The notes under the pieces were generated by a model. The model saw only the letters and a list, made by a program, of their open reading frames with translations, had not been told where the DNA came from and did not search any database. A stretch of DNA of 64,000 bases from Spirosoma montaniterrae. Lineage in GTDB: Bacteria > Bacteroidota > Bacteroidia > Cytophagales > Spirosomataceae. Location: positions 1,612,001-1,676,000 of the forward strand of contig NZ_CP014263.1 in NCBI RefSeq assembly GCF_001988955.1, in the 5' to 3' direction. Every line of letters starts with the position of its first letter. Positions within the stretch are counted from its first letter, which is position 1. Shown here piece after piece: positions 33,248-49,086 of the stretch. The translations under genes were made by a program, and so were the position numbers.

Positions 33248-33293
33248 AGCCATGATTCGTACCTTTGCCCGTAAAGCAGTACGAATCATGGCT
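33248..33293. promoter_or_regulatory. Perfect inverted repeat spanning promoter and start of rnhA
   Basis: AGCCATGATTCGTAC (33248-33262) and GTACGAATCATGGCT (33279-33293) are perfect 15-bp complements 16 bases apart. A TACCTTTG element (33260-33267), matching the Bacteroidota -7 consensus TAnnTTTG, sits at the inner edge of the left arm, and the right arm contains the RNase H ATG (33288). It could be an operator over the promoter or an RNA hairpin hiding the start. Confidence 0.7.
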
Positions 33294-33926: not shown

Positions 33927-33935
33927 GCCATCAGC

Positions 33936-34062
33936 ACCAGGATTAACCAAGATTTGCGAGATTATTACAAGATGCTACGCTTCGCTTACCTAAATTTTCA
34001 TTTAATAAACAAGCGAAGCGTAGCATCTTGTTTAATCGTATAAATCGTGGCTAATCCTGGTT
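33936..34062. repeat. MANPGS-type inverted repeat, copy 1
   Basis: Outer arms 33936-33955 and 34042-34061 match at 18 of 20 positions (consensus ACCAGGATTAGCCACGATTT). Inner arms 33967-33987 and 34011-34031 are perfect 21-mers containing GATGCTACGCTTCGC. The right outer arm supplies the GTG start (34047) and the first codons MANPGS of the next gene. Copies 2 and 3 are at 46792-46907 and 48944-49086. Confidence 0.9.
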
Positions 34063-34775
34063 CTTTTTTCTCCTTCAAACAATTCACCATTCAGCAAGAC
34101 CGCACGGCAATGAAGGTTTGTACCGATGCCTGTGTGCTGGGTGCATACGCTGATGTAGGTTCAGGTGCCGAATCCAGAGCAGAGCGTGTCCTTGACATTG
34201 GTACAGGAACGGGGCTGCTCGCACTCATGGCCGCCCAACGCAAGCCAACGACGCAGGTCGACGCGGTGGAGATTGATGATGAAGCATTTCGGCAAGCCGT
34301 TGATAATGTGGCGCATAGTCCGTTTGCCGGGCGCGTTCGGGTTTGGCACGGGCCGATACAATCGTTTGACGGTGAGCCATACGACCGTATTCTAACGAAC
34401 CCGCCGTTCTACACAAACCATCTACGTTCGCCCGATGCCGCCGTAAACCGTGCTTTACACACCGGAGAGCTACCTTTTACGGACCTGCTGACGGCTGTAA
34501 GTCGATTGCTCCGGCGCGATGGGCAATGGTGGGTGTTGCTACCGCCCTATGAAGCCGGGCTGCTGAGCAAGATGGCGCAGACGTATGGGCTGCGTCCGTT
34601 TCGGCGGCTGTATCTCCGGCACAACACGCACAAACCCCCGTTTCGGGTCATTACGGGCTTTGGATACGGGCCGGAAACTGCGACCGACGAAACGCTGTTC
34701 ATTTATGAAATCGATAACCGGACATACACACCCGCATTTCGGGCGTTGTTGCAGGATTTTTACCTGATTTTCTGA
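34047..34775 (+). CDS. TrmN6-like tRNA1(Val) A37 N6-methyltransferase
   Basis: 242 residues. The conserved family start FSFKQFTIQQDRTAMKVCTD begins at residue 8, and the SAM loop DIGTGTG (50-56) and adenine-methylase motif NPPF (118-121) are clear. The GTG at 34047 lies within a repeat arm and is the only start codon between an in-frame TAA (34041-34043) and the FKQF motif, so the repeat really encodes the N-terminus MANPGS. The enzyme modifies adenine 37 of a tRNA in E. coli; the same role is inferred here. Confidence 0.88.
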   Translation: MANPGSFFSFKQFTIQQDRTAMKVCTDACVLGAYADVGSGAESRAERVLDIGTGTGLLALMAAQRKPTTQVDAVEIDDEAFRQAVDNVAHSPFAGRVRVWHGPIQSFDGEPYDRILTNPPFYTNHLRSPDAAVNRALHTGELPFTDLLTAVSRLLRRDGQWWVLLPPYEAGLLSKMAQTYGLRPFRRLYLRHNTHKPPFRVITGFGYGPETATDETLFIYEIDNRTYTPAFRALLQDFYLIF

Positions 34776-34828
34776 AAACTCTGCGACCTTTGTGTCATTC
34801 AACGCAGCCTAATGCGTTTATTTATCAA

Positions 34829-35827
34829 ATGACTGCATCGCTTCAACTGACTGTTCTGATTCCGCTTTACAACGAAGAAGAATCGCTGCCCGAACTGCAC
34901 GACTGGATTGTGCGGGTAGTAACTGAACAGCGGTTTTCATACGAAATTTTATTTGTTGACGACGGCAGCACCGACGATTCATGGGCGGTGGTTGAGCAAC
35001 TGGCTGGCGTGAATCCGCACGTGCGCGGCATTCGGTTTAACCGCAATTACGGCAAAACGGCGGCTCTACAGGCAGGGTTTACGGCAGCACAGGGCGGTGT
35101 CATCATTACCATGGACGCCGATTTGCAGGACAGCCCCGACGAAATCCCCGAACTTTACCGGATGATCGTTGACGACCGGTACGACCTTGTGTCGGGCTGG
35201 AAACAGAAACGCTACGACCCCATTACCAAAACGCTGCCAACCAAACTGTTCAACGCCGTATCGCGCTGGATTTCGGGCGTGCAGCTTCACGATTTCAACT
35301 GCGGCCTGAAAGCGTACCGACAGAAAGTAGTCAAAACCATTGCCCCCGGCCTGTATGGCGACATGCACCGAAATTTGCCGATTGTAGCCAACTGGAACGG
35401 TTTTTCGAAGATTGGTGAGAAGGTAGTTCAACACCGTGCCCGCAAATATGGCACCACTAAGTTCGGGCTGGAACGATTCGTCAATGGCTTTCTCGACGTG
35501 TTGGTGATTGCCTTTGTGAATAAGTTTGGCAAACGACCCATGCACTTCTTCGGCACCTTCGGCACACTGTCGTTTTTTATTGGCACAGTGCTGGCCGTTT
35601 GGATCATTGTTGAAAAACTGGTCAATATTTCGCAGGGTGTCAAGTTTCGTAATGCCACCGATAACCCGCTGTTTTATTTCGGTTTAGTGGCGATTATTCT
35701 GGGCGTGCAGCTTTTTCTGGCCGGTTTTCTGGGCGAGTTGCTGGTGCGTCAGAGCCTTGTCAAAAGTGCCGATTCGCAAATTGCTGAGCGAATTGGGTTT
35801 ACGGAAACGGCCCGTTTCCTCGGTTAA
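34829..35827 (+). CDS. Family 2 glycosyltransferase, polyprenyl-phosphate type
   Basis: 332 residues from ATG 34829. The GT-A domain shows VLIPLYNEEESLPEL, VDDGSTDD (Asp44, Asp45) and MDADLQDSPDEIP (the DxD region near 95-101). Two C-terminal hydrophobic helices (FFGTFGTLSFFIGTVLAVWIIV and FYFGLVAIILGVQLFLAGFLGELL, described here in part) anchor it in the membrane. This layout is that of DPM1/GtrB/ArnC-like enzymes, which load a sugar onto undecaprenyl phosphate. No flippase partner adjoins. Confidence 0.9.
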   Translation: MTASLQLTVLIPLYNEEESLPELHDWIVRVVTEQRFSYEILFVDDGSTDDSWAVVEQLAGVNPHVRGIRFNRNYGKTAALQAGFTAAQGGVIITMDADLQDSPDEIPELYRMIVDDRYDLVSGWKQKRYDPITKTLPTKLFNAVSRWISGVQLHDFNCGLKAYRQKVVKTIAPGLYGDMHRNLPIVANWNGFSKIGEKVVQHRARKYGTTKFGLERFVNGFLDVLVIAFVNKFGKRPMHFFGTFGTLSFFIGTVLAVWIIVEKLVNISQGVKFRNATDNPLFYFGLVAIILGVQLFLAGFLGELLVRQSLVKSADSQIAERIGFTETARFLG

Positions 35828-35850
35828 ACCAAACGACTGTGTTTTTTGCG

Positions 35851-35858
35851 TAGCTTTG
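35851..35858 (+). promoter_or_regulatory. Candidate -7 element for ppa
   Basis: TAGCTTTG fits TAnnTTTG. It lies 155 bases before the chosen ppa ATG, which would give a long leader or support one of the more upstream starts. No convincing -33 box was found. Confidence 0.4.
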
Positions 35859-36013
35859 CCGTGGATTTTACACCGTTCCGCCCGCTACTGGTCTGGCTTT
35901 GCCACCCATCGGCAGGCGGAATGTTTGTTTTTGTGTCTCGGCAAACACCGAATTTTCTAATTTTTTCTCAAAATTGTATGCAGGCATTTTTTGCGCCAAC
36001 CGAACTCGATCTT

Positions 36014-36625
36014 ATGGCAAAGACCCCTTCCAAAGCTCACCCCTGGCACGGTATCTCGCCAGGCGATAATGCTCCTGATATTATCACTGCTTTCATCGAA
36101 ATTGTGCCGACTGATACCGTTAAGTACGAAATCGATAAAGAGTCGGGATATCTGAAAATCGACCGGCCTCAGCAGTATTCCAACATTATTCCGGCTCTGT
36201 ACGGCTTCGTGCCACGCACCTACTGTGGCGACCGCATTGCCCGGCTGGCCTCGGAACGGTCGGGACGGTTTATCGAAATGGGCGATGGCGACCCACTCGA
36301 CATTTGTGTATTGACCGAACGCGAAATCACCCACGGCGACATTCTGTTGCAGGCGGTGCCCATCGGTGGTTTCCGGCTGATCGACAAGGGCGAAGCCGAC
36401 GACAAAATTATTGCCGTACTGAAAGGCGACGCCATGTACGGCCAATACAAAGACCTGAGCGAACTACCCGAAGCGGTGGTGAAACGCCTGCGTCACTACT
36501 TCCTGACTTATAAGAACTTGCCCGGCGAACCGGCTTTGATGGAACTGGCAAACGTGTACGGACGCGACGAAGCCTGCGAAGTCATTCAAACGTCGATGGA
36601 TGATTACGCCGACATGCCCGCGTAG
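36014..36625 (+). CDS. ppa: Family I inorganic pyrophosphatase
   Basis: 203 residues from ATG 36014; an in-frame ATG at 35978 would add 12 residues, and the frame stays open further upstream without family-like sequence. The metal and substrate residues are visible in KYEIDKESG, YGFVPRTYCGD and GDGDPLDICVL (the D-x-D-P-x-D motif at 91-96). The enzyme hydrolyses pyrophosphate released by biosynthesis and is cytosolic. It stands as its own unit, closed by a bidirectional hairpin at 36649. Confidence 0.93.
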   Translation: MAKTPSKAHPWHGISPGDNAPDIITAFIEIVPTDTVKYEIDKESGYLKIDRPQQYSNIIPALYGFVPRTYCGDRIARLASERSGRFIEMGDGDPLDICVLTEREITHGDILLQAVPIGGFRLIDKGEADDKIIAVLKGDAMYGQYKDLSELPEAVVKRLRHYFLTYKNLPGEPALMELANVYGRDEACEVIQTSMDDYADMPA

Positions 36626-36648
36626 CGTTTTTCTACCATTTATCCCCC

Positions 36649-36702
36649 AAAATACGCACTCAACATTTTTCCGGTTATCGGGAAAACTGGGTGCGTATTT
36701 TT
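36649..36702. terminator. Intrinsic, possibly bidirectional terminator after ppa
   Basis: AAAATACGCAC (36649-36659) pairs with GTGCGTATTTT (36691-36701). An inner TTTTCC/GGAAAA stem extends the hairpin, and a T-rich tract follows on both strands. Confidence 0.8.
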
Positions 36703-36742
36703 GTTTATTGCGTATTTGGATTTATTAACCTACTAAGCAACT

Positions 36743-38509
36743 ATGCTACAGTTTTTTAAATATGTGCTGGCTACAATTGTTGGGCTGCTGCTGTTCTCAT
36801 TTGTGGGCTTCCTGCTCCTGATCGGTCTGACAGCGGCCCTGTCGTCGTCGGCTGACACGAAGGTAGATGTCAAAGAAAATTCGGTGCTGAAACTAAACCT
36901 CGACAAGCCCATTCAGGAACGCAGTACCGAAAATCCGTTCGAGGGTTTTGGACCGGTAAGCGGCTCGGGTAGTGCGCTCGGCCTGATCGAGATCAAACAG
37001 GCGTTGAAAGCCGCTAAAGACGATGATAATATCGAAGGCATTTATCTCCAGGCCGAAGAAATACAGGCGGGCTGGGCCACCATCGAAGAAATCCGTAACG
37101 CGCTGATCGACTTCAAACAATCGAAAAAATTTGTGTATGCCTACGCCGAAACCATGTCGGAGAAGGGCTATTACGTGGCGTCGGTGGCCGATAAAATTTA
37201 CCTGAACCCGGCGGGCGGCATGGAGTGGAACGGCCTGAACGCTGAACTGATGTTCTTCAAAGGAACCCTCGACAAACTGGGCCTGAAACCCGAAATCTTC
37301 AAAGTCGGCGATTTCAAAAGTGCCGTAGAACCGTTTGTGCGCGAAAACATGAGCGATCCTAATCGACTCCAGGTCAGTTCGTTCCTGAATTCGATCAACG
37401 ACCACATGCTCGTGAAGGTGGCCCAAACACGCGGGCTGCGCGTAGATTCGCTGAAACGCTATGCCGACAACCTGACGATTCAGAAACCTGCCGATGCACT
37501 GCGGGCCAAACTGATTACGAACGTAGGTTATCAGGATGAACTGGAAAGCCTGATTAAGAAACAGTTGGATCTGGACGAGAAAAAGAAAATCAGCTACATC
37601 TCGCTCGGTAAGTACGGGAAATCCGCAAAAGATGATGAGGGTGAATCGAGCAAAAACCGAATCGCTGTCATCATAGCTTCGGGCGACATCAGTACGGGCA
37701 AAAGTGGGGAAGAAAGCATTGGCTCCGAAACAGTTGCCGAAGAAATCCGGAAGGCACGTTTAGATGATAAAGTGAAAGCCATTGTGTTGCGGGTTAATTC
37801 GGGTGGGGGCAGTGCGCTGGCCTCAGACGTGATGTACCGCGAGGTCGAGCTGGCGAAAAAAGCCAAACCCGTGATTGGCTCCATGTCCGATTATGCCGCT
37901 TCGGGTGGGTATTACATGCTTATGGGCTGCAACAAAATCGTGGCACAGCCCAACACCATTACGGGTTCGATTGGCGTGTTTGCGCTCTTGTTCAACACCG
38001 AAACATTCTTCAAAGATAAACTCGGCGTGACCTACGACCGGGTCAAAACCAACGTCAATTCCGATTTCCCGGCGTTGACGCACGAAATGACGCCGTTTCA
38101 GAAGCAGGTGTTGCAACGTAGTACCGAAAAGATTTATGCCGACTTCACGACCAAAGCCGCTGCCGGTCGGAAATTGCCGGTCGATAGTATCCGGGCCATT
38201 GCTGGCGGGCGCGTCTGGACGGGTTCGCAGGGTAAAGCCATCGGACTAGTCGATCAGTTAGGTGGGCTGGACGATGCCATCAAACTGGCGGCTCAGTCGG
38301 CTAAGTTGAAAGAGGGCGATTATAAACTGAAATATCAGCCGCGCAAAAAGCCGTTTTTTGAGCAACTGATGGCTTCGTTTGGCGGTGATGAAGAAGCCCG
38401 AATTTCGGCTCAACTCGGCGAACTGGCTCCGTATGTAGCGTATCTGAAAAAGGTCAAAACAATGGAGGGTGTGCAGATGCGCCTGCCGTTCCAGGTCGAG
38501 ATTCGATAA
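36743..38509 (+). CDS. sppA: Signal peptide peptidase SppA, 67-kDa type
   Basis: 588 residues with an N-terminal membrane helix (YVLATIVGLLLFSFVGFLLLIGL). It is a tandem-domain protease. The general base Lys192 lies in KVGDFKSAVEPF and the nucleophile Ser387 in MSDYAASGGYYM, matching the Lys209/Ser409 dyad of the E. coli enzyme. It degrades cleaved signal peptides in the membrane. A strong intrinsic terminator follows (38532-38569). Confidence 0.93.
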   Translation: MLQFFKYVLATIVGLLLFSFVGFLLLIGLTAALSSSADTKVDVKENSVLKLNLDKPIQERSTENPFEGFGPVSGSGSALGLIEIKQALKAAKDDDNIEGIYLQAEEIQAGWATIEEIRNALIDFKQSKKFVYAYAETMSEKGYYVASVADKIYLNPAGGMEWNGLNAELMFFKGTLDKLGLKPEIFKVGDFKSAVEPFVRENMSDPNRLQVSSFLNSINDHMLVKVAQTRGLRVDSLKRYADNLTIQKPADALRAKLITNVGYQDELESLIKKQLDLDEKKKISYISLGKYGKSAKDDEGESSKNRIAVIIASGDISTGKSGEESIGSETVAEEIRKARLDDKVKAIVLRVNSGGGSALASDVMYREVELAKKAKPVIGSMSDYAASGGYYMLMGCNKIVAQPNTITGSIGVFALLFNTETFFKDKLGVTYDRVKTNVNSDFPALTHEMTPFQKQVLQRSTEKIYADFTTKAAAGRKLPVDSIRAIAGGRVWTGSQGKAIGLVDQLGGLDDAIKLAAQSAKLKEGDYKLKYQPRKKPFFEQLMASFGGDEEARISAQLGELAPYVAYLKKVKTMEGVQMRLPFQVEIR

Positions 38510-38531
38510 AATAGTTTGGTTTGCAATGCTT

Positions 38532-38569
38532 AGACCTGAACGGGCATCAACGTCGTTCAGGTCTTTTTT
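38532..38569 (+). terminator. Intrinsic terminator after sppA
   Basis: AGACCTGAACG (38532-38542) pairs perfectly with CGTTCAGGTCT (38554-38564), followed by a run of T. Confidence 0.92.
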
Positions 38570-38606
38570 GTGTATTTTGCGATTGTACCATGTAGCCTGA
38601 AGGCTT

Positions 38607-39800
38607 ATGAAAATCCTGCCACCGCAGTTGGATGTATTCGCGCTGATTATGCTGCTGGGCGTGGCCCAGGGAATATTTTTAGGTATATTTTTCCTGACGG
38701 GCGAACGTGGGCGGACGGTAGCAAATCGCTGTTTGGGCTGGTTTATGCTGGCGATCTCGGCTGTAACAGCCGAAATTTTTCTGGGCTATACCAACTACAT
38801 GTTCCGGGTGCTGTGGTTAGTCGACTTTTCGGAGCAATTCAATTTTCTGGTAGGGCCGCTGTTTTATTTTTTCGTGTACGCCCGGCTGTACGACCAATTA
38901 CCAAAGCGGTGGGTATGGCATCTGGTGCCATTTAGCCTCTGGTGCCTGAATGCTATTACCTGGTTTTATCAACCTGTCGAGTTTAAGTACAATGCATATA
39001 TTTCAGCCTATCATCCTGAATTATCATTTGTTCGCTTTAATGAATATATACCCCACGATTTTACGGAATTACGTGATTATGTGAGTGAGCTAACACTGTT
39101 AAGTTGTTTCATATACAGTATGTTATCGATGGTGGCTGTTTGGCAGGCTTACCGGCAGGCAGGCAGGACTCTGGGCCAGTTTGTATCGGTTCAACTTACC
39201 CAGCTTCGGAATCTGGCGATATTGAACCTGACGTTTCCACTGTTGATTGTTGTCGTTAAACCGCAGTTTGAAGAAGACCTGGGCGATTATATTCTGGCCT
39301 GTTACGTAACGGTTCTTATCTATACGACCTGTTTTTTAGTTATGCGCGGCTCCGATTTTTTTCGGACGGCCCCCATGCCTGCTCTGGTTGCAGACGAATC
39401 AACGCCGACCGTCGAGCCAAAGAGAAAATACGAAAAATCGGCTCTGTCGGAAGAACTGGAAGAGGCTGTATTAATCCGACTGGCCCGGCTGCTCGATACT
39501 GAGAAACCGTATCTGCAAGCCGATCTCTCCTTGCCCAAACTGGCCGAACGGCTGCAAACCAGCCCGCACCACCTCTCGCAACTGCTCAACGACCGGTTGG
39601 GGCAAAGCTTTTTCGACTGGCTGGCCGCGCATCGTATCGCCGAAGCGCAACAGCTACTTAATAACTCCGCAACAGCGCACCTGAAAATTGATGAGATCGC
39701 CGAGCGGGTAGGCTACAATTCGCCGTCGGCGTTTCACACCGCTTTCAAGCGCATTACCGGTCAAACTCCGGCTCAGTTTCGTGCGTCCCTATCGGCGTGA
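38607..39800 (+). CDS. Membrane-embedded AraC-family regulator
   Basis: 397 residues. The N-terminal 250 residues hold about seven hydrophobic segments (FALIMLLGVAQGIFLGIFFL, FNFLVGPLFYFFVYARLY, YILACYVTVLIYTTCFLVM). A charged linker (EPKRKYEKSALSEELEEAV) leads to an AraC DNA-binding domain (LSLPKLAERLQTSPHHLSQLLND and IDEIAERVGYNSPSAFHTAFKRITGQTP). Such one-component membrane regulators are common in Bacteroidota and sense an unknown signal at the membrane. The acyltransferase gene 76 bases downstream is a plausible target. Confidence 0.9.
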   Translation: MKILPPQLDVFALIMLLGVAQGIFLGIFFLTGERGRTVANRCLGWFMLAISAVTAEIFLGYTNYMFRVLWLVDFSEQFNFLVGPLFYFFVYARLYDQLPKRWVWHLVPFSLWCLNAITWFYQPVEFKYNAYISAYHPELSFVRFNEYIPHDFTELRDYVSELTLLSCFIYSMLSMVAVWQAYRQAGRTLGQFVSVQLTQLRNLAILNLTFPLLIVVVKPQFEEDLGDYILACYVTVLIYTTCFLVMRGSDFFRTAPMPALVADESTPTVEPKRKYEKSALSEELEEAVLIRLARLLDTEKPYLQADLSLPKLAERLQTSPHHLSQLLNDRLGQSFFDWLAAHRIAEAQQLLNNSATAHLKIDEIAERVGYNSPSAFHTAFKRITGQTPAQFRASLSA

Positions 39801-39876
39801 ACTTCGTAGTTGTCGGCAGATAGGGCGTTGAACACGGTTGCAGGCCAGTTTTGTCGCATCGAACAACCAACCGATT

Positions 39877-41076
39877 ATGCAACCCGATCAACACGCAACT
39901 ACAGCCGGTTCCTTGCCGCCTGTTGTCAACCAACTTCCTGCCCGCCGGTACGATCTCGACTGGCTGCGGGTGGGTGCTATTCTGATTCTACTGTTCTACC
40001 ACACCGGCATGATCTACGTGTCGTGGGGCTGGCACATCAAAAGCACCGAACACAGCCAGCCGATGGAGGAAGTAATGCGATGGCTGCACCGCTGGCGGAT
40101 GCCGCTGCTATTTTTTATTTCAGGGGCCGGTACGTATTTCGCCCTTCGGAAACGCAGCTACGGTGGCTATGCGGGCGAGCGCGTTCGGCGACTGTTTGTG
40201 CCGTTAGTGTTCGGGATGTTTGTTATCGTGCCGCCCCAAATTTATATCGAGTGGTTGTTTCGGGGACGGTTTTCAGGCAATTACGCCGAATTTTACCCAA
40301 ACGTTTTTGGTTTTGAACCTTACCACGATGGTGGTACGGGCGGGGCCTTTAGCTGGCACCATTTGTGGTTTGTGTGTTACCTGTTTTTCTATTCATTGCT
40401 GAGCATTCCCGTGTTTCGCTGGCTCCGAACCAGTGCCGGACAGCGATTTACTGACCGAGTAGGGCGGCTACTGGCCCGGCCCGGTGGGGCTATGTGGCTG
40501 GTGGGCCTGCTGTGGCTGAACGACGTGGCACTGGGCAGTTTTTTTCCCAATGAAACCCACGCCCTCATCAACGACTGGGCCTACTTCATGAAAAACCTGA
40601 TTATTTTCTGGTTAGGCTACCTGCTCATCAGCCGACGCGACTTCTGGCAAATCATTGCCGATCAGCGACGATTTTTTCTGGCCGGAACCCTCATTTGTAC
40701 GTTGTTTCTCTACGGTTCGCGGGCCATGCTGACCGAAGAGGCCATCGACGGTTCGACTCTGATAAGAACCTTGTATAGTTTCAACAGTCTGGGCCTGACG
40801 TGGTTTTCGGTGCTGGCAACGGTGGCCTACGGTTATCGGTATCTGAACGTAAACCGGCCCATTTTGCCGTACCTGAACGAAGCCGTGTACCCGTTTTACA
40901 TCCTGCACCAAACCGTTATTGTTGTTGTTGGGTACTACGTGCTGACGCGCACCGGGCTGGGTGTTTACAGCGGTTTCTTGACAGTAAGTTTCGGTTCGCT
41001 GGCGGTGTGTATTGCAATTTATTGGCTGCTGATCAGGCCGTTCTGGCTAACGCGGCTGCTGTTTGGCATGAAATAA
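39877..41076 (+). CDS. Acyltransferase family 3 membrane protein
   Basis: 399 residues from ATG 39877; an in-frame TTG at 39838 would add 13 residues. About ten hydrophobic segments follow the family's opening motif YDLDWLRVGAILILLFYH, with the conserved His of the first helix, and FFISGAGTYFALRKRS in the second. These proteins transfer acyl (acetyl or succinyl) groups to extracytoplasmic glycans, as in OpgC. The substrate is unknown. It follows the membrane AraC regulator, and a strong terminator (41163-41203) closes the unit. Confidence 0.88.
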   Translation: MQPDQHATTAGSLPPVVNQLPARRYDLDWLRVGAILILLFYHTGMIYVSWGWHIKSTEHSQPMEEVMRWLHRWRMPLLFFISGAGTYFALRKRSYGGYAGERVRRLFVPLVFGMFVIVPPQIYIEWLFRGRFSGNYAEFYPNVFGFEPYHDGGTGGAFSWHHLWFVCYLFFYSLLSIPVFRWLRTSAGQRFTDRVGRLLARPGGAMWLVGLLWLNDVALGSFFPNETHALINDWAYFMKNLIIFWLGYLLISRRDFWQIIADQRRFFLAGTLICTLFLYGSRAMLTEEAIDGSTLIRTLYSFNSLGLTWFSVLATVAYGYRYLNVNRPILPYLNEAVYPFYILHQTVIVVVGYYVLTRTGLGVYSGFLTVSFGSLAVCIAIYWLLIRPFWLTRLLFGMK

Positions 41077-41162
41077 ATTAACGGCTCCAACGCAACCGTT
41101 TGGCCCTGATTTACGTATATGAGCAATAAACCAGCAATGGTTGCTACCAACCTATGATGGTG

Positions 41163-41203
41163 GCCGCAGAACGATGATTGGGCATCGCGTCTGCGGCTTT
41201 TTT
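41163..41203 (+). terminator. Intrinsic terminator after acyltransferase gene
   Basis: GCCGCAGA (41163-41170) pairs with TCTGCGGC (41190-41197), reinforced by an inner CGATG/CATCG stem, and is followed by TTTTTT. Confidence 0.9.
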
Positions 41204-41288
41204 GCGTTCCTTTTCAGCCAAAAAATTGCTTCGCCCCGCTCAATTTCCGACTTTTGACAATATAAATTCGTAATTCGTAAATCAACCC

Positions 41289-42284: not shown

Positions 42285-42320
42285 TTGCACCAGATTTTAC
42301 GTACAGGCAAATAGTTTATA

Positions 42321-42411
42321 ACACAGAGATACGCTAAGGAGAAAGAGATACACGGAGATTTTGTTGCTATTAGCCTCCGTGTATCTCTTTCCCCTTAGCG
42401 TATCTCTGTGT
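42321..42411. repeat. Very long near-perfect inverted repeat after bioB
   Basis: Arms of 37 bases (42321-42357 and 42375-42411) match at 36 of 37 positions around a 17-base loop; the ends read ACACAGAGATACGC and GCGTATCTCTGTGT. It lies between convergent genes (bioB and a lipoprotein) and could terminate both. The sequence is unrelated to the other repeat families here. Confidence 0.9.
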
Positions 42412-42442
42412 AACAATAGTATGCAGTGCCTGAATAACTGCA

Positions 42443-43228
42443 TTACGCCGACGCGTCTTCAATAAAGTGCGACAGCACCAGATTGGCGAGGTCGGCGGCT
42501 TTTTTCTGTCGCTGCTGTTCCGTACCCTTCATCTGCACCGTGATCGACAGGATGTGATTGTTATAGAGCACGTGTAGTGCCTGTTTGGTGGGGTCCCAAA
42601 CGGCTTTATCGCCTACGTTCGGCATGGCAACAAACCGGCCCGCGCTCACAACGGGTTTAGTAAACTGCGTAGCTACCGGTGTTATGCCTGATACGGAGTT
42701 CGATGAGTCGTTGTTGGCCGTAGCATCCTCGTCAGCATCGGCAGCGGCCCCGCCTTCGGGTTCAATGGCTGGCCGTTCGGCACCCGTTCCTGCTGGTTCA
42801 GGCCCGCTCAGAGCCGGTTTCTGATTGGCTTCGCCCGATTGTCCTGACACCTGCCCGGCTCCACCCTGATAGTTTTTGTCGAAGTTATATTCGGCATGGT
42901 AAATTGATGGATAGGGGCGGGGGCCACCCAGGGCAAGACTTACTGTGCCGCCCGACCATTTGAACTGACAACCAGTCTGAGAATCCAATACGGTGAGTTC
43001 GTCGGTGGGCTTGATATCGAACATCTCCTGAATCAGCCCCTCATTCAATTGGTTACAGATTTCATCGTAGCCGAGCCGCTGGTCGGTGCTAAGTTGCCAG
43101 ACGCCCGTTACCTCTTTCGCCAGAATTTTGCTGCCCGTACCGGCGGCATCGTTGGCATCGTCGTTTTCGTGCTGACCACAGGCCATCAAACAAAAAGGCA
43201 GGGCCAAAAAAAGCAATTTGGTTTTCAT
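42443..43228 (-). CDS. Lipoprotein of unknown function
   Basis: 261 residues with a lipobox LMAC ending at Cys17 (MKTKLLFLALPFCLMACGQ). A first domain (VTGVWQLSTDQRLGYDEICNQLNEGL) and a last domain (KQALHVLYNNHILSITVQMKG) flank a low-complexity Glu/Ala/Asp/Gly/Pro linker (about residues 125-170). The last part may be a small alpha/beta fold. I recognise no family. It is probably anchored to a membrane facing the periplasm. Confidence 0.8.
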   Translation of the reverse strand: MKTKLLFLALPFCLMACGQHENDDANDAAGTGSKILAKEVTGVWQLSTDQRLGYDEICNQLNEGLIQEMFDIKPTDELTVLDSQTGCQFKWSGGTVSLALGGPRPYPSIYHAEYNFDKNYQGGAGQVSGQSGEANQKPALSGPEPAGTGAERPAIEPEGGAAADADEDATANNDSSNSVSGITPVATQFTKPVVSAGRFVAMPNVGDKAVWDPTKQALHVLYNNHILSITVQMKGTEQQRQKKAADLANLVLSHFIEDASA

Positions 43229-43366
43229 AAGAGCGGAGTACGTTTTTGTGTATTACCAAAATACCCGCTTAGTTGTTTTACCTTTTATCAATCGCAGACT
43301 ATTGAACCAACGGTAACGAGAACCGAACAAATCAAACAAGCCGCTGAGCGAATGGCAATCCCTGCT

Positions 43367-43374
43367 TACTTTTG
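43367..43374 (+). promoter_or_regulatory. Candidate -7 element for lpxH
   Basis: TACTTTTG fits TAnnTTTG and lies 18 bases before the lpxH start, giving a short leader. No good -33 box is visible. Confidence 0.45.
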
Positions 43375-43392
43375 CGTTGAATAATTCGCTGC

Positions 43393-44169
43393 ATGTCCAA
43401 CCTCGAACACATTCCGCTGCCCGCCGGTCGCCACGTTTATTTTGCTTCTGATTTTCACCTCGGAACCCCTACACCCGATCAAAGCCGTGCCCGCGAACAG
43501 GCCGTTGTTAACTGGCTCGACACCGTTCGTGCCAATGCCGAACTGATTTTCTTAGTCGGCGACGTGTTCGATTTCTGGTTTGAGTACAAACGTAGTATTC
43601 CAAAGGGATTTATTCGATTACAGGGCAAATTAGCCGAACTGACCGATGCCGGAACGCGCATTGTGCTGTTTACGGGCAATCACGACATGTGGATGCAGGA
43701 TTATTTCACGCAGGAAATGGGTATTCCTGTGTATCGGAATCCGCGTCAGTACGAAATCGGCACGAAACGATTTCTGATCGGCCACGGCGACGGCCTCGGC
43801 CCCGGCGATTTTACCTACAAACGCCTGAAACGGCTGTTTGAAAGCGGAGCGGGGCAGTGGTTATTCCGATGGCTGCATCCCGACGTGGGCATTACGCTGG
43901 CGCAGGCATGGTCGCGCCGGAGCCGCATCAGCAATCAGGAAAAAGGGGAGGAGTTTCTGGGTGAAGACCGCGAGTGGCTCATGCAGTACTGCCGTGAAGT
44001 AGAGCAGCGCGAACACCATGATTATTACGTATTCGGCCACCGCCACCTCCCGCTCGATCTGGCCGTGAACGACCGCAGCCGGTATATTAACCTCGGCGAA
44101 TGGGTATCGGCCAAAACCTACGGTGTGTTCGACGGCGAACGACTGAGGTTAGAAACGTGGCAGGGTTAA
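43393..44169 (+). CDS. lpxH: UDP-2,3-diacylglucosamine diphosphatase
   Basis: 258 residues of the calcineurin-like phosphoesterase fold. The metal-binding motifs appear in order: DFHLG (Asp20, His22), GDVFDFW (Asp57), GNHD (Asn96, His97), IGHGDGLGPGD and FGHRH. The FDFWFEY segment and overall length fit LpxH, which removes UMP to give lipid X in lipid A synthesis at the membrane surface. No other lpx genes adjoin. The toxin-antitoxin pair follows after 74 bases. Confidence 0.9.
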   Translation: MSNLEHIPLPAGRHVYFASDFHLGTPTPDQSRAREQAVVNWLDTVRANAELIFLVGDVFDFWFEYKRSIPKGFIRLQGKLAELTDAGTRIVLFTGNHDMWMQDYFTQEMGIPVYRNPRQYEIGTKRFLIGHGDGLGPGDFTYKRLKRLFESGAGQWLFRWLHPDVGITLAQAWSRRSRISNQEKGEEFLGEDREWLMQYCREVEQREHHDYYVFGHRHLPLDLAVNDRSRYINLGEWVSAKTYGVFDGERLRLETWQG

Positions 44170-44243
44170 GCAACATAACACGGAAGGCTACAAACTGGCA
44201 CGGCTTTTCGTGTAATTTTGTTCACCAGCAAAGAAAACAGCGT

Positions 44244-44462
44244 ATGGCAACGATCACAGTAGAGGTTCAGGACAAGAAACTGAAGTTTTTTAAAGAACTG
44301 CTTAACCAGCTTTCTTTCGTAAAAATTCGGGAAGACGAACCCGACGAAGATACCGACGAGCAGGTAATTGCCAACATACGTGAAGGTGTTCGACAAATGC
44401 GGTTGGTGGAGCAGGGGAAGATACAAAGTCGCCCGGCACGCGAGTTTCTGGACGAATTATGA
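44244..44462 (+). CDS. Probable antitoxin of a RelE/ParE-type pair
   Basis: 72 residues from ATG 44244. It begins with a beta strand (ATITVEVQDKKLKFF), followed by an acidic, helical C-terminal part (REDEPDEDTDEQVIANIREGVRQMRLV). This is the usual plan of small antitoxins that wrap a RelE/ParE toxin. Its stop overlaps the toxin start (ATGA at 44459-44462), implying translational coupling. I cannot assign a named antitoxin family. Confidence 0.78.
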   Translation: MATITVEVQDKKLKFFKELLNQLSFVKIREDEPDEDTDEQVIANIREGVRQMRLVEQGKIQSRPAREFLDEL

Positions 44463-44785
44463 TGTATCGCGTTGACAGTATCGAGCATTTTGAACGCGAA
44501 GCGAAACGGTTGAAAAAGAAGTTTCCTTCACTCAAAGAAGAGATCAATCGCCTAATTGATTCGCTTGAAAAGGACCCGTTTCAAGGCGCAGCTATGCGCG
44601 ACGGATTCTATAAAATTCGCTTGGGAATCAAATCGAAAGGCAAAGGAAAACGGGGCGGAGCGCGTGTCATCACGTGCGTGAAGGTCGTTGCCGAAACGGT
44701 TTTTTTGGTTTCGATCTACGATAAATCGGAACAGTCGGATATTGCCGACAGCGAACTGACCCGGTTGCTAACCGAATTGCCTTAG
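44459..44785 (+). CDS. RelE/ParE-family toxin
   Basis: 108 residues starting on the antitoxin stop. The basic first helices (FEREAKRLKKKFPSLKEEINRLIDSLEKDP) and the core strands (GFYKIRLGIKSKGKGKRGGARVITCV and VFLVSIYDKSEQSDI) are typical of RelE/ParE toxins. Whether it cleaves mRNA or poisons gyrase is not readable. It is the second toxin-antitoxin module in the window, unlike higBA in gene order. Confidence 0.84.
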   Translation: MMYRVDSIEHFEREAKRLKKKFPSLKEEINRLIDSLEKDPFQGAAMRDGFYKIRLGIKSKGKGKRGGARVITCVKVVAETVFLVSIYDKSEQSDIADSELTRLLTELP

Positions 44786-44804
44786 TAGTTGAAAGCAGAT
44801 AAGA

Positions 44805-45533
44805 TCAATTACCATCCTGCAAGATGTCCTTGCGGGTCATGTTTTCGCGAGGAGCTTTGTTGAGTTCGCTGCGGAATTCCTTGCTTTTGAAATCACCCCG
44901 TTTTACTGACCGGATGAAATTAGCCCACGCGAAGGGGTTCGTAAAGGCAAACGTGGTCATGTTGCTGCGCCCGTAGGCCGATTCGCGCCCGAAAAACTGC
45001 TGATTCACGAAATTCTGGTGGTTGGCAATGGCACCCATCGGCATGGTTGCGGCCTGTCGCATAATAGCCGCCGGGTCGGTGTTGCGGGCGAGGTTATCGC
45101 GTTCCATCTGATCGGGCAGTTTCAGACTAACAAATGCTTCCTTGAACAACTGCTCGGTGGCGTAGGGGTACACTTTTACCTCGGCCAGCGTTTTCACGTC
45201 TTCCTGCAACGCCACTACCGCCGAATAGGTCAGGTCAGAGAGTCGGCGCGGGATGATGTGGTACTGCGTTTTGAAGCCTACATAGCTGAAAATGATACTG
45301 TCGCCGGGGAAAACGGGTAGGGCAAAATAACCGTTCGGAGCTGATAATACGCCTTTTCCGGCTTTAGGAATGTAGATATAGGCATTGGGCAGCGGCTCGT
45401 TGGTTTTGCCGCCTGTAATGAAGCCTGTGAACGTTACCTGACGCTCCTGTCCTTGCGCGAATGCGACCGAAAACAGCCCTGCACCAATGAACAGGAATAA
45501 AACCAAACCCAGTAACGCCAGCAATTTCTTCAT
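44805..45533 (-). CDS. Secreted protein with CarboxypepD_reg-like domain
   Basis: 242 residues with a signal peptide (LLALLGLVLFLFIGAGLFSVAFAQ). Residues about 33-110 (FTGFITGGKTNEPLPNAYIYIPKAGKGVLSAPNGYF, IFSYVGFKTQ) match the carboxypeptidase-regulatory beta-sandwich found in SusC and other Bacteroidota envelope proteins. The rest is alpha-helical and polar and is seen in stand-alone proteins of this type. The role is unknown; surface or periplasmic location is expected. Confidence 0.86.
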   Translation of the reverse strand: MKKLLALLGLVLFLFIGAGLFSVAFAQGQERQVTFTGFITGGKTNEPLPNAYIYIPKAGKGVLSAPNGYFALPVFPGDSIIFSYVGFKTQYHIIPRRLSDLTYSAVVALQEDVKTLAEVKVYPYATEQLFKEAFVSLKLPDQMERDNLARNTDPAAIMRQAATMPMGAIANHQNFVNQQFFGRESAYGRSNMTTFAFTNPFAWANFIRSVKRGDFKSKEFRSELNKAPRENMTRKDILQDGN

Positions 45534-45620
45534 GAGCAGTCAATCAATTCACAAAATAAACGAGTAAAGCCCCTCCTTCGGTTCGTCTAACCAAATTTTA
45601 ACAAGAATTAAGCCCGACGG

Positions 45621-45767
45621 GTTGAATGATTGAATGATTGAATGAAGGCTACTACCTCAGCACCCCATTCAATCATTCAATCATTCAATCATTCAATCAT
45701 TCAATCATTCAATCATTCAATCATTCAATCATTCTATCACTCAATCATTCAATCATTCAACCATTCA
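45621..45767. repeat. Eight-base tandem array with an inverted left arm
   Basis: Twelve units of ATTCAATC or close variants run from 45667 to 45762; the first eight are perfect. A complementary GATTGAAT-type arm lies at 45621-45645, across a 21-base gap, so the whole can fold back. The array ends at the cdsA stop codon (45765-45767). Similar units form the repeat at 27408-27486. Copy number is likely to vary between strains. Confidence 0.9.
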
Positions 45768-46577
45768 GGCAAACAGTTTCAGAAACGAGATGATAAACGG
45801 TGCGGCCAGAATCAGGCTGTCGAAGCGATCTAAAAAGCCACCGTGACCGGGGATGCTCGTACCCGAATCTTTAATAGCTATGCTGCGCTTGAACAACGAT
45901 TCGACCAAATCGCCGTAAATACCCGTCACAACAATAATAGCCCCTACGCAATACCACTGCCAGGGTTGCAGGGTGCTGTCGTAGAAGGCCAGAGCCAGGG
46001 CCACGAGGGCGGCAGCACCCGCTCCGCCAATGGCCCCTTCCCATGACTTTTTCGGCGACACGCGCTCGAACAGTTTGCGTTTGCCAAAGGTGCGCCCGGC
46101 AAAGTACGCGCCAATGTCGCTCGCCCATAGCAGAAACAGACAGCCCAGAATAATAGTAGGATGATACGCCCCGCCCCGTAACGCCAGCACAATGAGCAGG
46201 GCAAACGGCATTGCCACGTAAATAATGCCCAGAAACGTGAAGCCAATGTTGGTGAATGGCTTCATATCACGCTTTTTGTAAAGCTTGATCAGGAAAATCA
46301 TCGACGACGCCGGGCAGATCAGAAAGTACGAATCGGTGTGTAAATAGCCTTTTTCAATCAAATAGGCTAATGCACAAACCAAACACCCGACCAGTGTACC
46401 GTAGGCCGTTAGCGGCTCGAAGCCGTCGAGACCCAGCAGCTTGTAGAACTCGCGCTGCGTCATGGCACTGATAAACGTAAAGAGCAGCGCGAACGTCCAG
46501 TCGGCGTACCAGATCAGAAAAATAATAAACGGAACCGCCACCACAGCGGCAAACACCCGCTGTTGAAGGTTCGACAT
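45765..46577 (-). CDS. cdsA: Phosphatidate cytidylyltransferase
   Basis: 270 residues from ATG 46577, one base after the stop of the DUF2007 gene (a start at 46598 would overlap it). About seven to eight membrane helices are present, with the family signature near the C-terminus (ESLFKRSIAIKDSGTSIPGH followed by GGFLDRFDS). It makes CDP-diacylglycerol for phospholipid synthesis. It is co-transcribed with the DUF2007 gene upstream. Its stop sits at the end of the eight-base tandem array. Confidence 0.94.
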   Translation of the reverse strand: MSNLQQRVFAAVVAVPFIIFLIWYADWTFALLFTFISAMTQREFYKLLGLDGFEPLTAYGTLVGCLVCALAYLIEKGYLHTDSYFLICPASSMIFLIKLYKKRDMKPFTNIGFTFLGIIYVAMPFALLIVLALRGGAYHPTIILGCLFLLWASDIGAYFAGRTFGKRKLFERVSPKKSWEGAIGGAGAAALVALALAFYDSTLQPWQWYCVGAIIVVTGIYGDLVESLFKRSIAIKDSGTSIPGHGGFLDRFDSLILAAPFIISFLKLFA

Positions 46578-46578
46578 A

Positions 46579-46809
46579 TTAGCTAAACGTCGCTTCATTA
46601 TCAAGGATAACTTTGGCAAGAATCGCGTCCTTAGCCATAACGTGCACTTCACTTTTGCCCAGACTCAGCGTGGGGTAGCTGCTGCTTTGGCTGTTCACGA
46701 CCACTGCCGGAATGTCGTGTTCGGCCAGCAGGGCTTTTGCCAGCTCGGCCCGATGCGGCAGCGGTGACGAATAAATTGATTCCCAGGAGTCTGAACCAGG
46801 ATTAGCCAT
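46579..46809 (-). CDS. DUF2007-type small protein with repeat-derived N-terminus
   Basis: 76 residues. The body (WESIYSSPLPHRAELAKALLA, EHDIPAVVVNSQ, GKSEVHVMAKDAILAKVIL) matches the DUF2007 family of putative signal-transduction proteins with a ferredoxin-like fold. The first eight residues MANPGSDS come from the left arm of repeat copy 2, which also supplies the ATG. It precedes cdsA by one base and is probably translationally coupled to it. Confidence 0.85.
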   Translation of the reverse strand: MANPGSDSWESIYSSPLPHRAELAKALLAEHDIPAVVVNSQSSSYPTLSLGKSEVHVMAKDAILAKVILDNEATFS

Positions 46810-46907
46810 GATTTTTAGGATTAAACAGAATTATAAATTCAACAAATCAACTAAGCGCAGCGTAGTATCTTGTTTTAATCTTGTAAATCATGGCTAATCT
46901 TGGTTCA
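46792..46907. repeat. MANPGS-type inverted repeat, copy 2
   Basis: Arms 46792-46814 and 46885-46907 match at 22 of 23 positions. Both arms are coding on the minus strand: the left gives the start and N-terminus of the DUF2007 gene (ATG at 46809), and the right gives the final residues and TAG stop (46894-46896) of the CPBP protease. The interior is AT-rich and retains AAGCGCAGCGTAG, related to the inner arms of copies 1 and 3. Confidence 0.9.
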
Positions 46908-47841
46908 AATGATTTTGAGATCTGAAAATTACCAGCAGCCCCGCCGTAACAACCCCAGCTATCAACCCTGCCCAGACCGGTACGGCTTCTGTACTGTCAA
47001 CATCGAACGAAACCAGTTTGCGTTGGTTCAGATAAACCATAAAAACGGTGAAGCCATTGTTGACAAAATGCGCCAGAATCGCCACCCACAAATTGCCCGA
47101 CCAGACGTACAGATAGCCAAACAACGCGCCCAGCAACATGCGGGGAAAAAAGCCAAGAAACTGAACGTGAATAGCACTGAACAGAATGGCCGCTACCCAG
47201 ATGCCGACATGAACGTTTTTGGTCCAATACGTCAGATTGCGTTGTAGGATACCACGAAACAACACCTCTTCGCCAATGGCCGGAATAACGCCGATCACGA
47301 GCAGAGCCACCAGTAGTTGCAGGGGTGTATTAAATGTGGTGAGATATTTGGTAAGCCCTTCAAGGTCTTTTTCCTTATCCCGAATCCATTGCTCAAGCGG
47401 AGCCAGCGTCTGGGGCAGATGCAGGTTGCGGTTCCAGTCGATAATCAGGCTGTCGAAGGGCATAAATGCGATGACAATCAGAGCCACCAGGCTTAGTCCC
47501 ACCACCGCCGATAGGGGCCGAACGCTGAACTGCGCCCAGTTTCGGCGTTCGATCCAGTACCAGTAAGCCAGTGCGGGCAGCAGAAACGTGCCGAGGTGAT
47601 TGACGGTCTGGAGCAGCATGATTTCGTACCACGCGCCGGGTTTCGTTGCCGGGCTGGTGGTCAGATCGAGCAGATAGGGCTGAATATCAGACACCGGAAG
47701 TCCTTTGGTCAGCACCAGTAAAACCGCCATCAGCATCGTACTGACAACACCCCCGATAAGTATAAAACCGATAAGAATCATCAGGCCGCCGAGCGTGGGC
47801 GGACGAGACGTTGCGTGGTTAGGTGCGTAGACGGATTGCAT
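46894..47841 (-). CDS. CPBP-family intramembrane metalloprotease (CAAX protease-like)
   Basis: 315 residues from ATG 47841; the open frame continues upstream but without family sequence. Eight or so hydrophobic segments contain the active-site motifs Glu191-Glu192-x3-Arg196 (GEEVLFRG), His225 (AIHVQFLGFFPR) and His258/Asn262 (LAHFVNNGF). The family includes prenyl-protein proteases and bacteriocin-immunity proteins. The last residues NQD and the stop come from the right arm of repeat copy 2. Confidence 0.89.
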   Translation of the reverse strand: MQSVYAPNHATSRPPTLGGLMILIGFILIGGVVSTMLMAVLLVLTKGLPVSDIQPYLLDLTTSPATKPGAWYEIMLLQTVNHLGTFLLPALAYWYWIERRNWAQFSVRPLSAVVGLSLVALIVIAFMPFDSLIIDWNRNLHLPQTLAPLEQWIRDKEKDLEGLTKYLTTFNTPLQLLVALLVIGVIPAIGEEVLFRGILQRNLTYWTKNVHVGIWVAAILFSAIHVQFLGFFPRMLLGALFGYLYVWSGNLWVAILAHFVNNGFTVFMVYLNQRKLVSFDVDSTEAVPVWAGLIAGVVTAGLLVIFRSQNHLNQD

Positions 47842-47968
47842 AATTTGTGTAAAAATACAAGTAATGCCGATAATTGTATGTATTACCTGTAGCATCAGGC
47901 TCAACACCAGGCGGAACCAAACGCGGGCGCAAATCGTAATTCGTACATCGTACCTGGTAAATACTGCT

Positions 47969-49006
47969 GTGGTTTCTATTGGCAACATTCAACTTCCCGA
48001 CTTTCCGCTACTGCTCGCCCCGATGGAGGACGTGAGCGACCCGCCGTTTCGCGCCGTTTGCAAGGCCAACGGAGCTGACCTGATGTATACAGAATTTATT
48101 TCGTCGGAAGGCTTAATCCGCGATGCGGCCAAGAGCGTACAGAAACTCGATATTTTTGAATACGAACGGCCCATCGGTATTCAACTGTTTGGCTCCGACG
48201 TACAAACAATGGCCGAATGCGCCCGTATTGCTACCCGCGCCAACCCCGACCTGATCGACATCAATTACGGCTGTCCGGTGAAGAACGTAGCCTGCCGGGG
48301 AGCAGGGGCCGCTTTATTGCAGGATATTCCGAAAATGGTGCAGATGACCGAAGCGGTAGTAAAAGCAACGCACCTGCCCGTAACCGTGAAAACCCGGCTC
48401 GGCTGGGACGATACCACGAAGAACGTAGAGGAAGTAGCCGAACGCTTGCAGGACATCGGTATCAAGGCCCTTACCATTCACGGGCGTACCCGGTCGCAGA
48501 TGTACAAAGGCAGTGCCGACTGGACGCTGATTGGCCGGATCAAAAACAACTCACGCATTCAGATTCCTATCTTCGGCAATGGCGACATCGATTCGCCCGA
48601 AAAGGCCGTGGAATACAAAAACCGGTATGGCGTCGATGGCGTAATGATTGGTCGGGCGAGCATCGGCTATCCGTGGATTTTCAACGAAATCAAGCATTTT
48701 GTGAAAACCGGGCAGCATCTGTCGGCACCCACCATTGCCGACCGCGTGGCTGTGTGCCGCCAGCACCTCGACTTTTCGATTCGCTGGAAGGGTGAGATTA
48801 CCGGTCTGTTCGAGATGCGCCGGCATTATGCCAACTATTTCAAAGGGCTGCCCGATTTCAAACCTTACCGCCAGCGGCTCGTTACGACCGATACCTACGC
48901 CGACACCCGCGCCGTGCTGGATGAAGTGGCTGAACATTATACGTCTGAACCAGGATTAGCCACGATTGACAAGATTAGTACAAGATTGTACGCTGCGCTT
49001 ACCTGA
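47969..49006 (+). CDS. dusB: tRNA-dihydrouridine synthase with repeat-derived C-terminal tail
   Basis: 345 residues from GTG 47969, which begins directly at the conserved SIGNIQLPDFPLLLAPMEDV. The FMN barrel has the catalytic Cys in NYGCPVKNVACRGAGAAL, then TVKTRLGWDD, IHGRTRSQMYKG and IGRASIGYPWIF, all characteristic of Dus enzymes of the DusB group. It reduces uridine in tRNA. From SEPGLATIDKISTRLY to the stop, the last 20 residues are encoded by the left arm and interior of repeat copy 3. Confidence 0.92.
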   Translation: MVSIGNIQLPDFPLLLAPMEDVSDPPFRAVCKANGADLMYTEFISSEGLIRDAAKSVQKLDIFEYERPIGIQLFGSDVQTMAECARIATRANPDLIDINYGCPVKNVACRGAGAALLQDIPKMVQMTEAVVKATHLPVTVKTRLGWDDTTKNVEEVAERLQDIGIKALTIHGRTRSQMYKGSADWTLIGRIKNNSRIQIPIFGNGDIDSPEKAVEYKNRYGVDGVMIGRASIGYPWIFNEIKHFVKTGQHLSAPTIADRVAVCRQHLDFSIRWKGEITGLFEMRRHYANYFKGLPDFKPYRQRLVTTDTYADTRAVLDEVAEHYTSEPGLATIDKISTRLYAALT

Positions 49007-49086
49007 CTTTGACTACATATGTAAGCGCTAAGCGCAGCGCATAAATCCTGTTTAATCCTGTTAATCGTGGCTAATCCTGGTTCAGA
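48944..49086. repeat. MANPGS-type inverted repeat, copy 3
   Basis: Perfect 24-base arms at 48944-48967 and 49063-49086 (core GAACCAGGATTAGCCACGAT). The left arm and part of the interior encode the C-terminal 20 residues of the Dus enzyme and its stop (49004-49006). The right arm carries the GTG start (49067) of the following exporter. The interior has an inner pair around AAGCGCAGCG. Confidence 0.93.

Follow-up and report, generated by a model that had tools for sequence, protein, structure and literature searches.

Hairpin repeats at gene borders in Spirosoma: ends that may have turned into stop and start codons of the adjoining genes

Introduction

Can a repeat lying between genes provide the first codons of genes that are otherwise unrelated? 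This question is raised by a 64,000-nt stretch of the Spirosoma montaniterrae genome (contig NZ_CP014263.1; C1:1612001-1676000 of the 5.80-Mb genome), the whole of which is called the window. A first-pass annotation had described three copies of one inverted repeat in it, an arm of each opening a different gene with the residues MANPGS, and had taken the repeat for a mobile-looking, portable translation-initiation module. The three copies are real, and their arms open the frames of a TrmN6-like methyltransferase, a DUF2007 protein, and a DMT exporter (Table 1). Judging from orthologous junctions, these hairpins were probably co-opted at gene borders, and at some junctions their ends would have become the stop of the upstream gene and/or the start of the downstream gene (probability of roughly 0.76). 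Comparison with orthologues shows that the neighboring genes have lost their native borders at several junctions, where the element carries the upstream stop and/or the downstream start. Start donation is a minority outcome and reflects co-option rather than the general role of the element.

Arm-coded starts and the N-termini of orthologues

The genome was searched with the arm TGGCTAATCCTGGTTC, allowing up to two mismatches, which gave 113 matches compared with one for the reversed control pattern. The copies reported earlier belong to a set of 49 two-arm elements, 97-291 bp long (median of 126 bp), and additional single arms. Ten genes open within an arm in this genome, namely the three of the window and seven others (Table 1). 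Orthologues of six of them (TrmN6, MnmH, DMT, DUF2007, RluE-like, and XerC-like) were compared using up to 30 loci per search among 36 genomes of the genus, and native N-termini were found to be replaced in TrmN6, MnmH, DMT, and DUF2007.

Orthologues of the TrmN6-like protein in Spirosoma start with MF[S/R]FKQF, and this start is replaced here by MANPGS, TTT now standing at the position of the native start codon. The methylase start had been called forced; an in-frame TAA (34041-34043) indeed precedes the GTG, and no ATG, GTG, or TTG occurs before the conserved FKQF motif, but this motif lies nine codons downstream of the GTG, not seven. The closest named genomes for this protein are those of Spirosoma species and one Larkinella. 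At the RNase H-TrmN6 junction of S. telluris (L063), we observed a different palindrome, ACCAGGATTTTTATGAT...ATCATAAAAATCCTGGTTC, 3 nt ahead of a TTG start.

Of 29 relatives examined for MnmH, 12 were parsed, and these start with M[VI]xxL[SP].., while the S. montaniterrae protein reads MANLGSEA... The native DUF2007 N-terminus has the form M-xEx-WES; all 18 parsed DUF2007 relatives start four codons ahead of WES/WEV (M/V followed by three residues), one of them with GTG, and 11 of the 30 loci were missed by the motif; the parsed counts for MnmH and DUF2007 omit rows in which the motif was not found or reverse-strand loci were left unturned. DMT relatives adjoining dusB start with MTx(E)EPV..QKRPLLAW, the part before RPLLAW being replaced by the arm-coded start in S. 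montaniterrae, and arm tips at the dusB end were found only at this species' own locus among 30 (0 of 29 others). A motif search for the GDSL hydrolase in one other genome (G039) gave no match. These comparisons support the view that native starts were lost and that the arm supplies the start codon and an (M)ANPGS N-terminus in unrelated genes (TrmN6, MnmH, DMT, and DUF2007), and orthologues likewise lend support to arm-coded starts in RluE-like, XerC-like, and MnmH. Family profiles begin immediately after the arm-coded part, at residue 7-11, in XerC-like, RluE-like, CrtD, GDSL, TrmN6 (TrmN position 12 at residue 8), and DUF2007 (position 1 at residue 9), and at residue 13-18 in MnmH and DMT (EamA position 5 at residue 18).

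The arm could instead be merely an open upstream stretch, annotated as coding by mistake, with the true starts at native codons downstream. An ATG retained directly after the arm is the likely start at C1:336876, C1:1834808, C1:2201396, and C1:4496979, where the arms carry CTG or CAG. A later DMT start is also possible, as the gene finder preferred the GTG at 49118, and such an artefact gains weight because of this gene; our gene finders were simple and home-made, with rough starts and exact stops, and the first one missed TrmN6, RluE, and DUF2007. However, in TrmN6, DUF2007, RluE, XerC-like, and MnmH, the stretch from the arm codon to the conserved part contains no ATG, GTG, or TTG, and orthologues of TrmN6, DUF2007, DMT, MnmH, and RluE show the native N-terminus that is replaced here. 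We consider an artefact of this kind highly improbable.

Table 1. Hairpin copies, genes, and stops in the window (window coordinates), and starts of the other arm-opened genes (C1 coordinates of the whole genome)
Feature	Position	Strand	Remark
Palindromic element copy 1, 130 bp	33934..34063	.	Between RNase HI-like gene and TrmN6-like gene
TGA stop of RNase HI-like ORF 33252-33926	33924..33926	+	7 nt ahead of copy 1
TrmN6-like methyltransferase, 242 aa	34047..34775	+	GTG 34047 and codons 2-6 (ANPGS) within right arm of copy 1
Palindromic element copy 2, 114 bp	46793..46906	.	Between CPBP-like and DUF2007 genes, both minus strand
DUF2007 protein, 76 aa	46579..46809	-	ATG 46809 and ANPGS arm-coded, DS directly behind arm
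TAG stop of CPBP-like ORF 46894-47988(-)	46894..46896	-	13 nt inside opposite arm of copy 2; C-terminus ...LNQD*
Palindromic element copy 3, 137 bp	48947..49083	.	Between dusB and DMT exporter gene
dusB stop (dusB = 47864-49006)	49004..49006	+	60 nt inside copy 3
EamA/DMT exporter, 301 aa	49067..49972	+	GTG 49067 and ANPGS arm-coded, DGSNH directly behind arm
XerC-like	Start C1:21699		Arm-coded start
RluE-like	Start C1:1029588		Arm-coded start
CrtD-like	Start C1:2907048	-	Arm-coded start
MnmH	Start C1:4376120		Arm-coded start
Thioesterase	Start C1:4490987		Arm-coded start
DUF4011 helicase	Start C1:5548028	-	Arm-coded start
GDSL hydrolase	Start C1:5719857	-	Arm-coded start, TTG

The earlier description is incomplete, since the same elements also end neighboring genes (the CPBP-like open reading frame (ORF) in copy 2 and dusB in copy 3). 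The last ~20 residues of dusB (SEPGLATIDKISTRLYAALT) are element-coded, and the RNase HI-like ORF ends in a stretch (TGAGCCATCA) resembling a degenerate outer repeat unit. A 1333-aa DUF4011/AAA helicase with its ATG in an arm (MTNPGSD) was noted at L057:28-4029 on the minus strand; it is related to anti-phage proteins (NF058533, below the cut-off).

A hairpin family of the genus

The element ends read TC(T/A)GAACC..GATT, also written TC(T/A)GAACCAGGATT, together with the mirror image, and in the arms AATC/GATT is repeated about every 10 nt. With at most one mismatch, the arm TGGCTAATCCTGGTTC was matched once each in 3 of 38 relatives and not at all in the others. The tip AATCCYGGTTCWGA was found in 28 of the 36 genus genomes, the S. 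montaniterrae genome included, with one match overall for the reversed control, and tip counts reached 97 in one other species (G005). The spacer sequence differs between species, so that the hairpin represents a genus-wide superfamily with species-specific sequence. A chance origin of the arm family was ruled out by the reversed controls of both the arm and the tip searches.

Predicted RNA folds were very stable in the four copies tested (z of -7.3 to -15.5), with -64.1 kcal/mol for copy 1 (z -10.8), -43.0 kcal/mol for copy 2 (z -7.3), and -80.6 kcal/mol for copy 3 (z -15.5), and the right arm holding the start is paired with the left arm in the predicted fold. Sub-threshold matches to miRNA families in Rfam are frequent for hairpins; the Rfam search gave 11 matches at E ≤ 1, all to miRNA families far under the gathering scores. 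A hairpin-like stretch outside the arm family lies behind a biotin-synthase-like ORF in the window (42305-42431) and likewise had only sub-threshold miRNA matches. Three elements (C1:1834808-1834946, C1:5122603-5122769, and C1:5181727-5181867) carry an extra tip ~42-44 nt from the outer tip and look as if one element had been inserted into, or duplicated within, another.

The ExoIII-RluE junction and XerC-like N-termini

The gene upstream of RluE, which we take to be ExoIII from its sequence rather than a family search, and RluE were followed across the genus. Of 30 ExoIII-RluE loci from the 36 genomes, 29 were parsed (all but L223), one of them being of a different kind (G044), and the RluE start was arm-coded in 11 of the 29. 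The arm-coded N-terminus was MANPGSD in S. montaniterrae; MNPGSD/E, MSPGSD, or MNSGSE elsewhere; and VNPGSD in G049, and the start was located one spacer further in for G005. The upstream frame ended in the left arm in 10 of the 11 arm-started loci, e.g., with ...HCPVYLNLDL* or ...LSLNQD*, the arm being degenerate in some. In G006, only an arm remnant was left at the junction, with no visible palindrome. RluE began with M directly before Y[FY]L in 17 loci, ~12 of which showed, by eye, hairpins of unrelated sequence at the junction. An element-free junction consisting of TGA, 4 nt, and ATG was found in G013 (L229).

The unrelated hairpins (GAGCGAAAGAGTG-like and similar) were seen at L211-L213, L215, L218, L219, L221, L224-L227, and L230; at L211 and L212, they provide the last codons and the stop of the upstream gene, and RluE retains its own ATG. 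A tandem repeat near the end of cdsA in the window (45642-45730) resembles these other-sequence hairpins.

Public gene calls agree with arm-coded starts. Among the best 120 RluE homologues, 30 had strict NPGS-like N-termini, 50 began with M immediately ahead of the conserved motif, and the remaining 40 were of other types. A tree was built from 118 of these proteins (two were left out), on which the NPGS label (37 proteins under a laxer pattern) required at least 22 changes, nine of them forced by well-supported branches; repeated gain or loss of the arm start at this one site is therefore likely. The label was more clustered than when shuffled (mean of 31.7 changes). A single origin of the arm N-terminus of RluE received no support from the tree.

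XerC-like N-termini also vary (MNPGSDF, MNQPNPGSDF, and MNHMNPGSDF), and the tip is duplicated in tandem at L432 of G002 and at L140:4081-4120, lengthening the XerC-like N-terminus; in the G002 protein, with tandem duplications MNPANHSNPANPGSDDPANHSNPANPGSDNPANPGSDSSDDF, repeats of the NPANPGSD type make the N-terminus ~40 residues long. Of the best 120 XerC-like homologues, that of S. montaniterrae included, 27 contained NPGxD/E, 36 more contained NP, and 57 had neither. The public gene set already holds a 303-aa prediction of the S. montaniterrae protein with the exact MANPGS start (P0121). In a Spirosoma strain with the arm at both genes, the peptides predicted from the arm-coded starts of RluE and XerC are MNPGSDYFLIYKPY and MNQPNPGSDFLAHIR, or processed forms of them.

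Element positions at stops, starts, and frames

Arm surroundings were examined for the 100 listed of the 113 arm matches, which yielded 110 outermost arms. Of these, 71 faced the 3' end of a gene and 38 a 5' end (start-facing genes being taken up to 0.9 kb away), and one was without a gene. All tips of three other genomes (G039, G041, and G004) were treated in the same count, and of these 106 tips, 40 faced starts, 39 faced ends, and 27 were unassigned. General enrichment of arms at starts was thus ruled out by the orientation counts in S. montaniterrae and the three other genomes, so that the excess at start codons on which the first-pass annotation had staked its claim was not seen. Stop donation is more frequent than start donation in the S. 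montaniterrae genome.

The 49 two-arm elements occupied 29 tandem, 19 convergent, and 1 divergent junctions. At the convergent junctions, the gap minus the element had a median of 2 nt (n = 19), compared with 24 nt in 46 element-free gaps (Mann-Whitney U test, p = 0.0016). Of 67 stops at two-arm elements, 62 fell within -18 to +16 nt relative to the arm edge, and 33 lay inside the element; all 20 stops at -13 were TAG, and all 10 stops at -2 were TGA. Read inward, the element ends stop two of the three frames within 13 nt (TGA at the edge and TAG inside). Read outward, the single open frame encodes x-A-NPGS-D in S. montaniterrae and NPGSD in its relatives.

These positions would also be expected if the hairpin had a job of its own at gene borders, as a bidirectional terminator, a stabilizer of mRNA 3' ends, or a brake near stops, with start donation as a by-product. 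The clustering of stops, the junction types (19 of 49 convergent and one divergent), the strong predicted hairpins, and the unrelated-sequence hairpins at ~12 other ExoIII-RluE loci speak for such a job, as does a study cited in PMC12306157, according to which repetitive extragenic palindromic (REP) sequences within 15 nt of stops stall ribosomes. On the other side, the arms of the three other genomes are split evenly between starts and ends, and PMC12306157 gives only 446 of 4,072 predicted Escherichia coli REPs within 15 nt of a stop. We regard a border job as less likely than not; it is compatible with co-option and not exclusive of it. Both are weakened because the gene-end surplus was not seen in the three other genomes.

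Alternatively, the element might spread as a dedicated module, bringing a start site that improves the expression of the gene behind it. The ten arm-started genes in one genome, the recurrence of the NPGS label at RluE, and a weak bias toward frame 0 among the downstream frames in S. montaniterrae (16/13/4, p = 0.029, with 6 tips unassigned) would agree with this. The frames were unbiased in the three other genomes combined (15/15/10, p = 0.54, with 27 tips unassigned), however, most arms of S. montaniterrae face gene ends, ATG or GTG stands at the start position in only 19 of the 110 outermost arms, and the start sits in a predicted stem. Many arms also retain an ATG directly 3' of the tip, which speaks against a general role in initiation. 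Strong frame selection was ruled out, being weak in this genome and absent from G039, G041, and G004. A portable initiation module is thus improbable as a general function; what holds of the earlier proposal is that the repeat seems to supply starts and (M)ANPGS to unrelated genes.

Translational coupling was considered as well. Here, a ribosome terminating on the upstream gene within the left arm would unfold the outer stem and expose the start in the right arm, giving joint translation of both genes. In all eight two-arm donors, the upstream gene has the same direction, and its stop lies inside the element in six of them, at -13 in four (C1:1029474, C1:1658793, C1:4376014, and C1:5719841), at -2 in C1:5548012, and at -60 in C1:1660947. 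Together with the predicted pairing of the start-holding arm with the left arm, the six in-element stops suggest that a ribosome in the left arm might open the stem hiding the start. Two donors do not fit (+7 for TrmN6, C1:1645934, and +113 for XerC-like, C1:21563), two more (C1:2907032 and C1:4490989) lie in single-arm clusters outside this count, and tandem order is expected anyway where the upstream promoter must be kept. Coupling appears rather unlikely on balance.

A related and equally tentative idea, to which we give low odds, is that of a junction-adapted element. Its ends would be selected to stop two of three frames inward and, outward, to offer an in-frame start followed by an innocuous flexible tag (NPGSD), so that it could settle in abutting or overlapping operon junctions with neither gene broken, the hairpin coupling translation; different hairpin families would have settled at ExoIII-RluE in different species.

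Shared sites and mobility

Genes adjoining arms recur between genomes much more than expected by chance. The S. montaniterrae genome formed 19 reciprocal best pairs with G039 (1.2 expected), 5 with G041 (0.5), and 7 with G004 (0.4), and the other genome pairs formed 14, 9, and 7 (0.1-0.3 expected), where the expectation is for 5000 equally likely genes with neighbors treated as independent. In a few of these pairs, the arm lies at different ends of the gene. Arm sites are either passed on by descent or struck anew, with turnover of the element sequence. The mobility suggested earlier is plausible in view of the species-specific sequence and dozens of copies, but many sites are common to several species. 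A link to Y1-type/REP-associated tyrosine transposases (RAYTs) was not evident in the 1.5-kb flanks of the three Y1_Tnp loci of the genome, two of which each hold one look-alike of the tip with two mismatches.

Origin of the borders

For the co-option of border hairpins, the following course can be envisaged. Elements may have moved as non-autonomous DNA akin to REPs or miniature inverted-repeat transposable elements (MITEs). Where genes abut, an insertion into them or a subsequent loss of flanking DNA would be tolerated only if the arm provided both a stop and a start in suitable frames, and the arm would afterwards evolve as coding sequence. The drifted N-termini (MSPGSD, MDPGSD, MHSGSD, and MNSGSE) and the tip duplications fit an arm evolving in this manner.

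Several points weigh against co-option. Of the four genomes counted, only that of S. montaniterrae shows an excess of arms facing gene 3' ends (71 vs. 38), and gene transfer or weak branches could account for part of the patchiness of the RluE tree. In the predicted fold, the arm with the start codon is paired, and initiation would be impeded if nothing melted the stem. ATG or GTG was present in 9 of the 10 donor arms compared with 10 of 100 other arms (p = 1.8e-7), a test that is partly circular because the donors were chosen as ORFs opening there. The profiles of the thioesterase and DUF4011 begin well inside the protein, a TTG lying three codons deeper in the element could also serve as the start of MnmH, and the orthologue comparison covers six of the ten arm-started genes. 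As for movement, no clear target-site duplication was seen by eye in the element flanks, many ends being flush with genes or having lost flanks, and no exact tip was found within 1.5 kb of the three Y1-type transposase loci, the only transposase family searched.

The orthologous junctions indicate how non-coding repeats may come to encode the two ends of housekeeping genes, seemingly more than once at one place, and then drift as protein. This bears on the origin of gene borders and N-terminal tags and on the tolerance of insertions inside operons. It is also relevant to start-site annotation, as MNPGSD-type N-termini are already in public gene sets. Many Spirosoma species differ at the ExoIII-RluE junction, offering matched pairs for testing a repeat-borne start and stop.

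Comparison with known repeat families

A literature search whose coverage left out most subscription papers returned no description of this family or of a start-donating repeat in Bacteroidota. The novelty assumed in the first-pass annotation holds to this extent, but related gene fusions of MITEs and Rickettsia palindromic elements (RPEs) are known.

REP palindromes and bacterial interspersed mosaic elements, with their RAYTs (PMC12306157; see also PMC2817692 and PMC3733652), share with the present elements a palindromic, intergenic nature and, in some cases, a position close behind stops (PMC12306157). The REPs of E. coli are 14-40 nt long (PMC12306157), whereas the elements here are mostly ~100-150 bp with GATT/AATC arms phased at 10 nt; none was as short as a REP palindrome of about 20-40 nt. 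No RAYT flanked by the repeat was found at the three Y1_Tnp loci. The stops cluster at the arm edges as expected of extragenic elements behind genes, but about half lie inside the element, and ten arms overlap gene starts.

The elements also resemble prokaryotic MITEs such as QMITE and RU in being short inverted repeats of some tens of copies, and the 49 two-arm elements have mirror-image terminal inverted repeats and are too short for a transposase gene. Fusions of prokaryotic MITEs to genes are reviewed in PMC10969869. QMITE1/2 of Coxiella extend into gene ends, to which they contribute stop codons or C-terminal residues (PMC5896051), and among the enterobacterial RU-1/2/3, RU-2 sequence forms approximately the N-terminal half of one Yersinia protein (PMC2759123). 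Within the accessible text of PMC5896051, PMC2759123, and PMC10969869, neither recurrent in-frame start donation to housekeeping genes nor an element that both closes one gene and opens its neighbor at a cross-species junction is described for QMITE or RU. Direct repeats are reported for QMITEs, and none is evident by eye at the hairpin elements here.

RPEs are ~150-bp palindromes translated in frame within genes into a conserved peptide (PMC10969869). The likeness would lie in a palindrome translated in frame as part of a host protein, which orthologues and profiles strongly indicate here. RPEs insert into ORFs (PMC10969869), whereas all 49 two-arm elements of S. montaniterrae sit between two genes, and it is the end of the hairpin that would form the N-terminus, start codon included.

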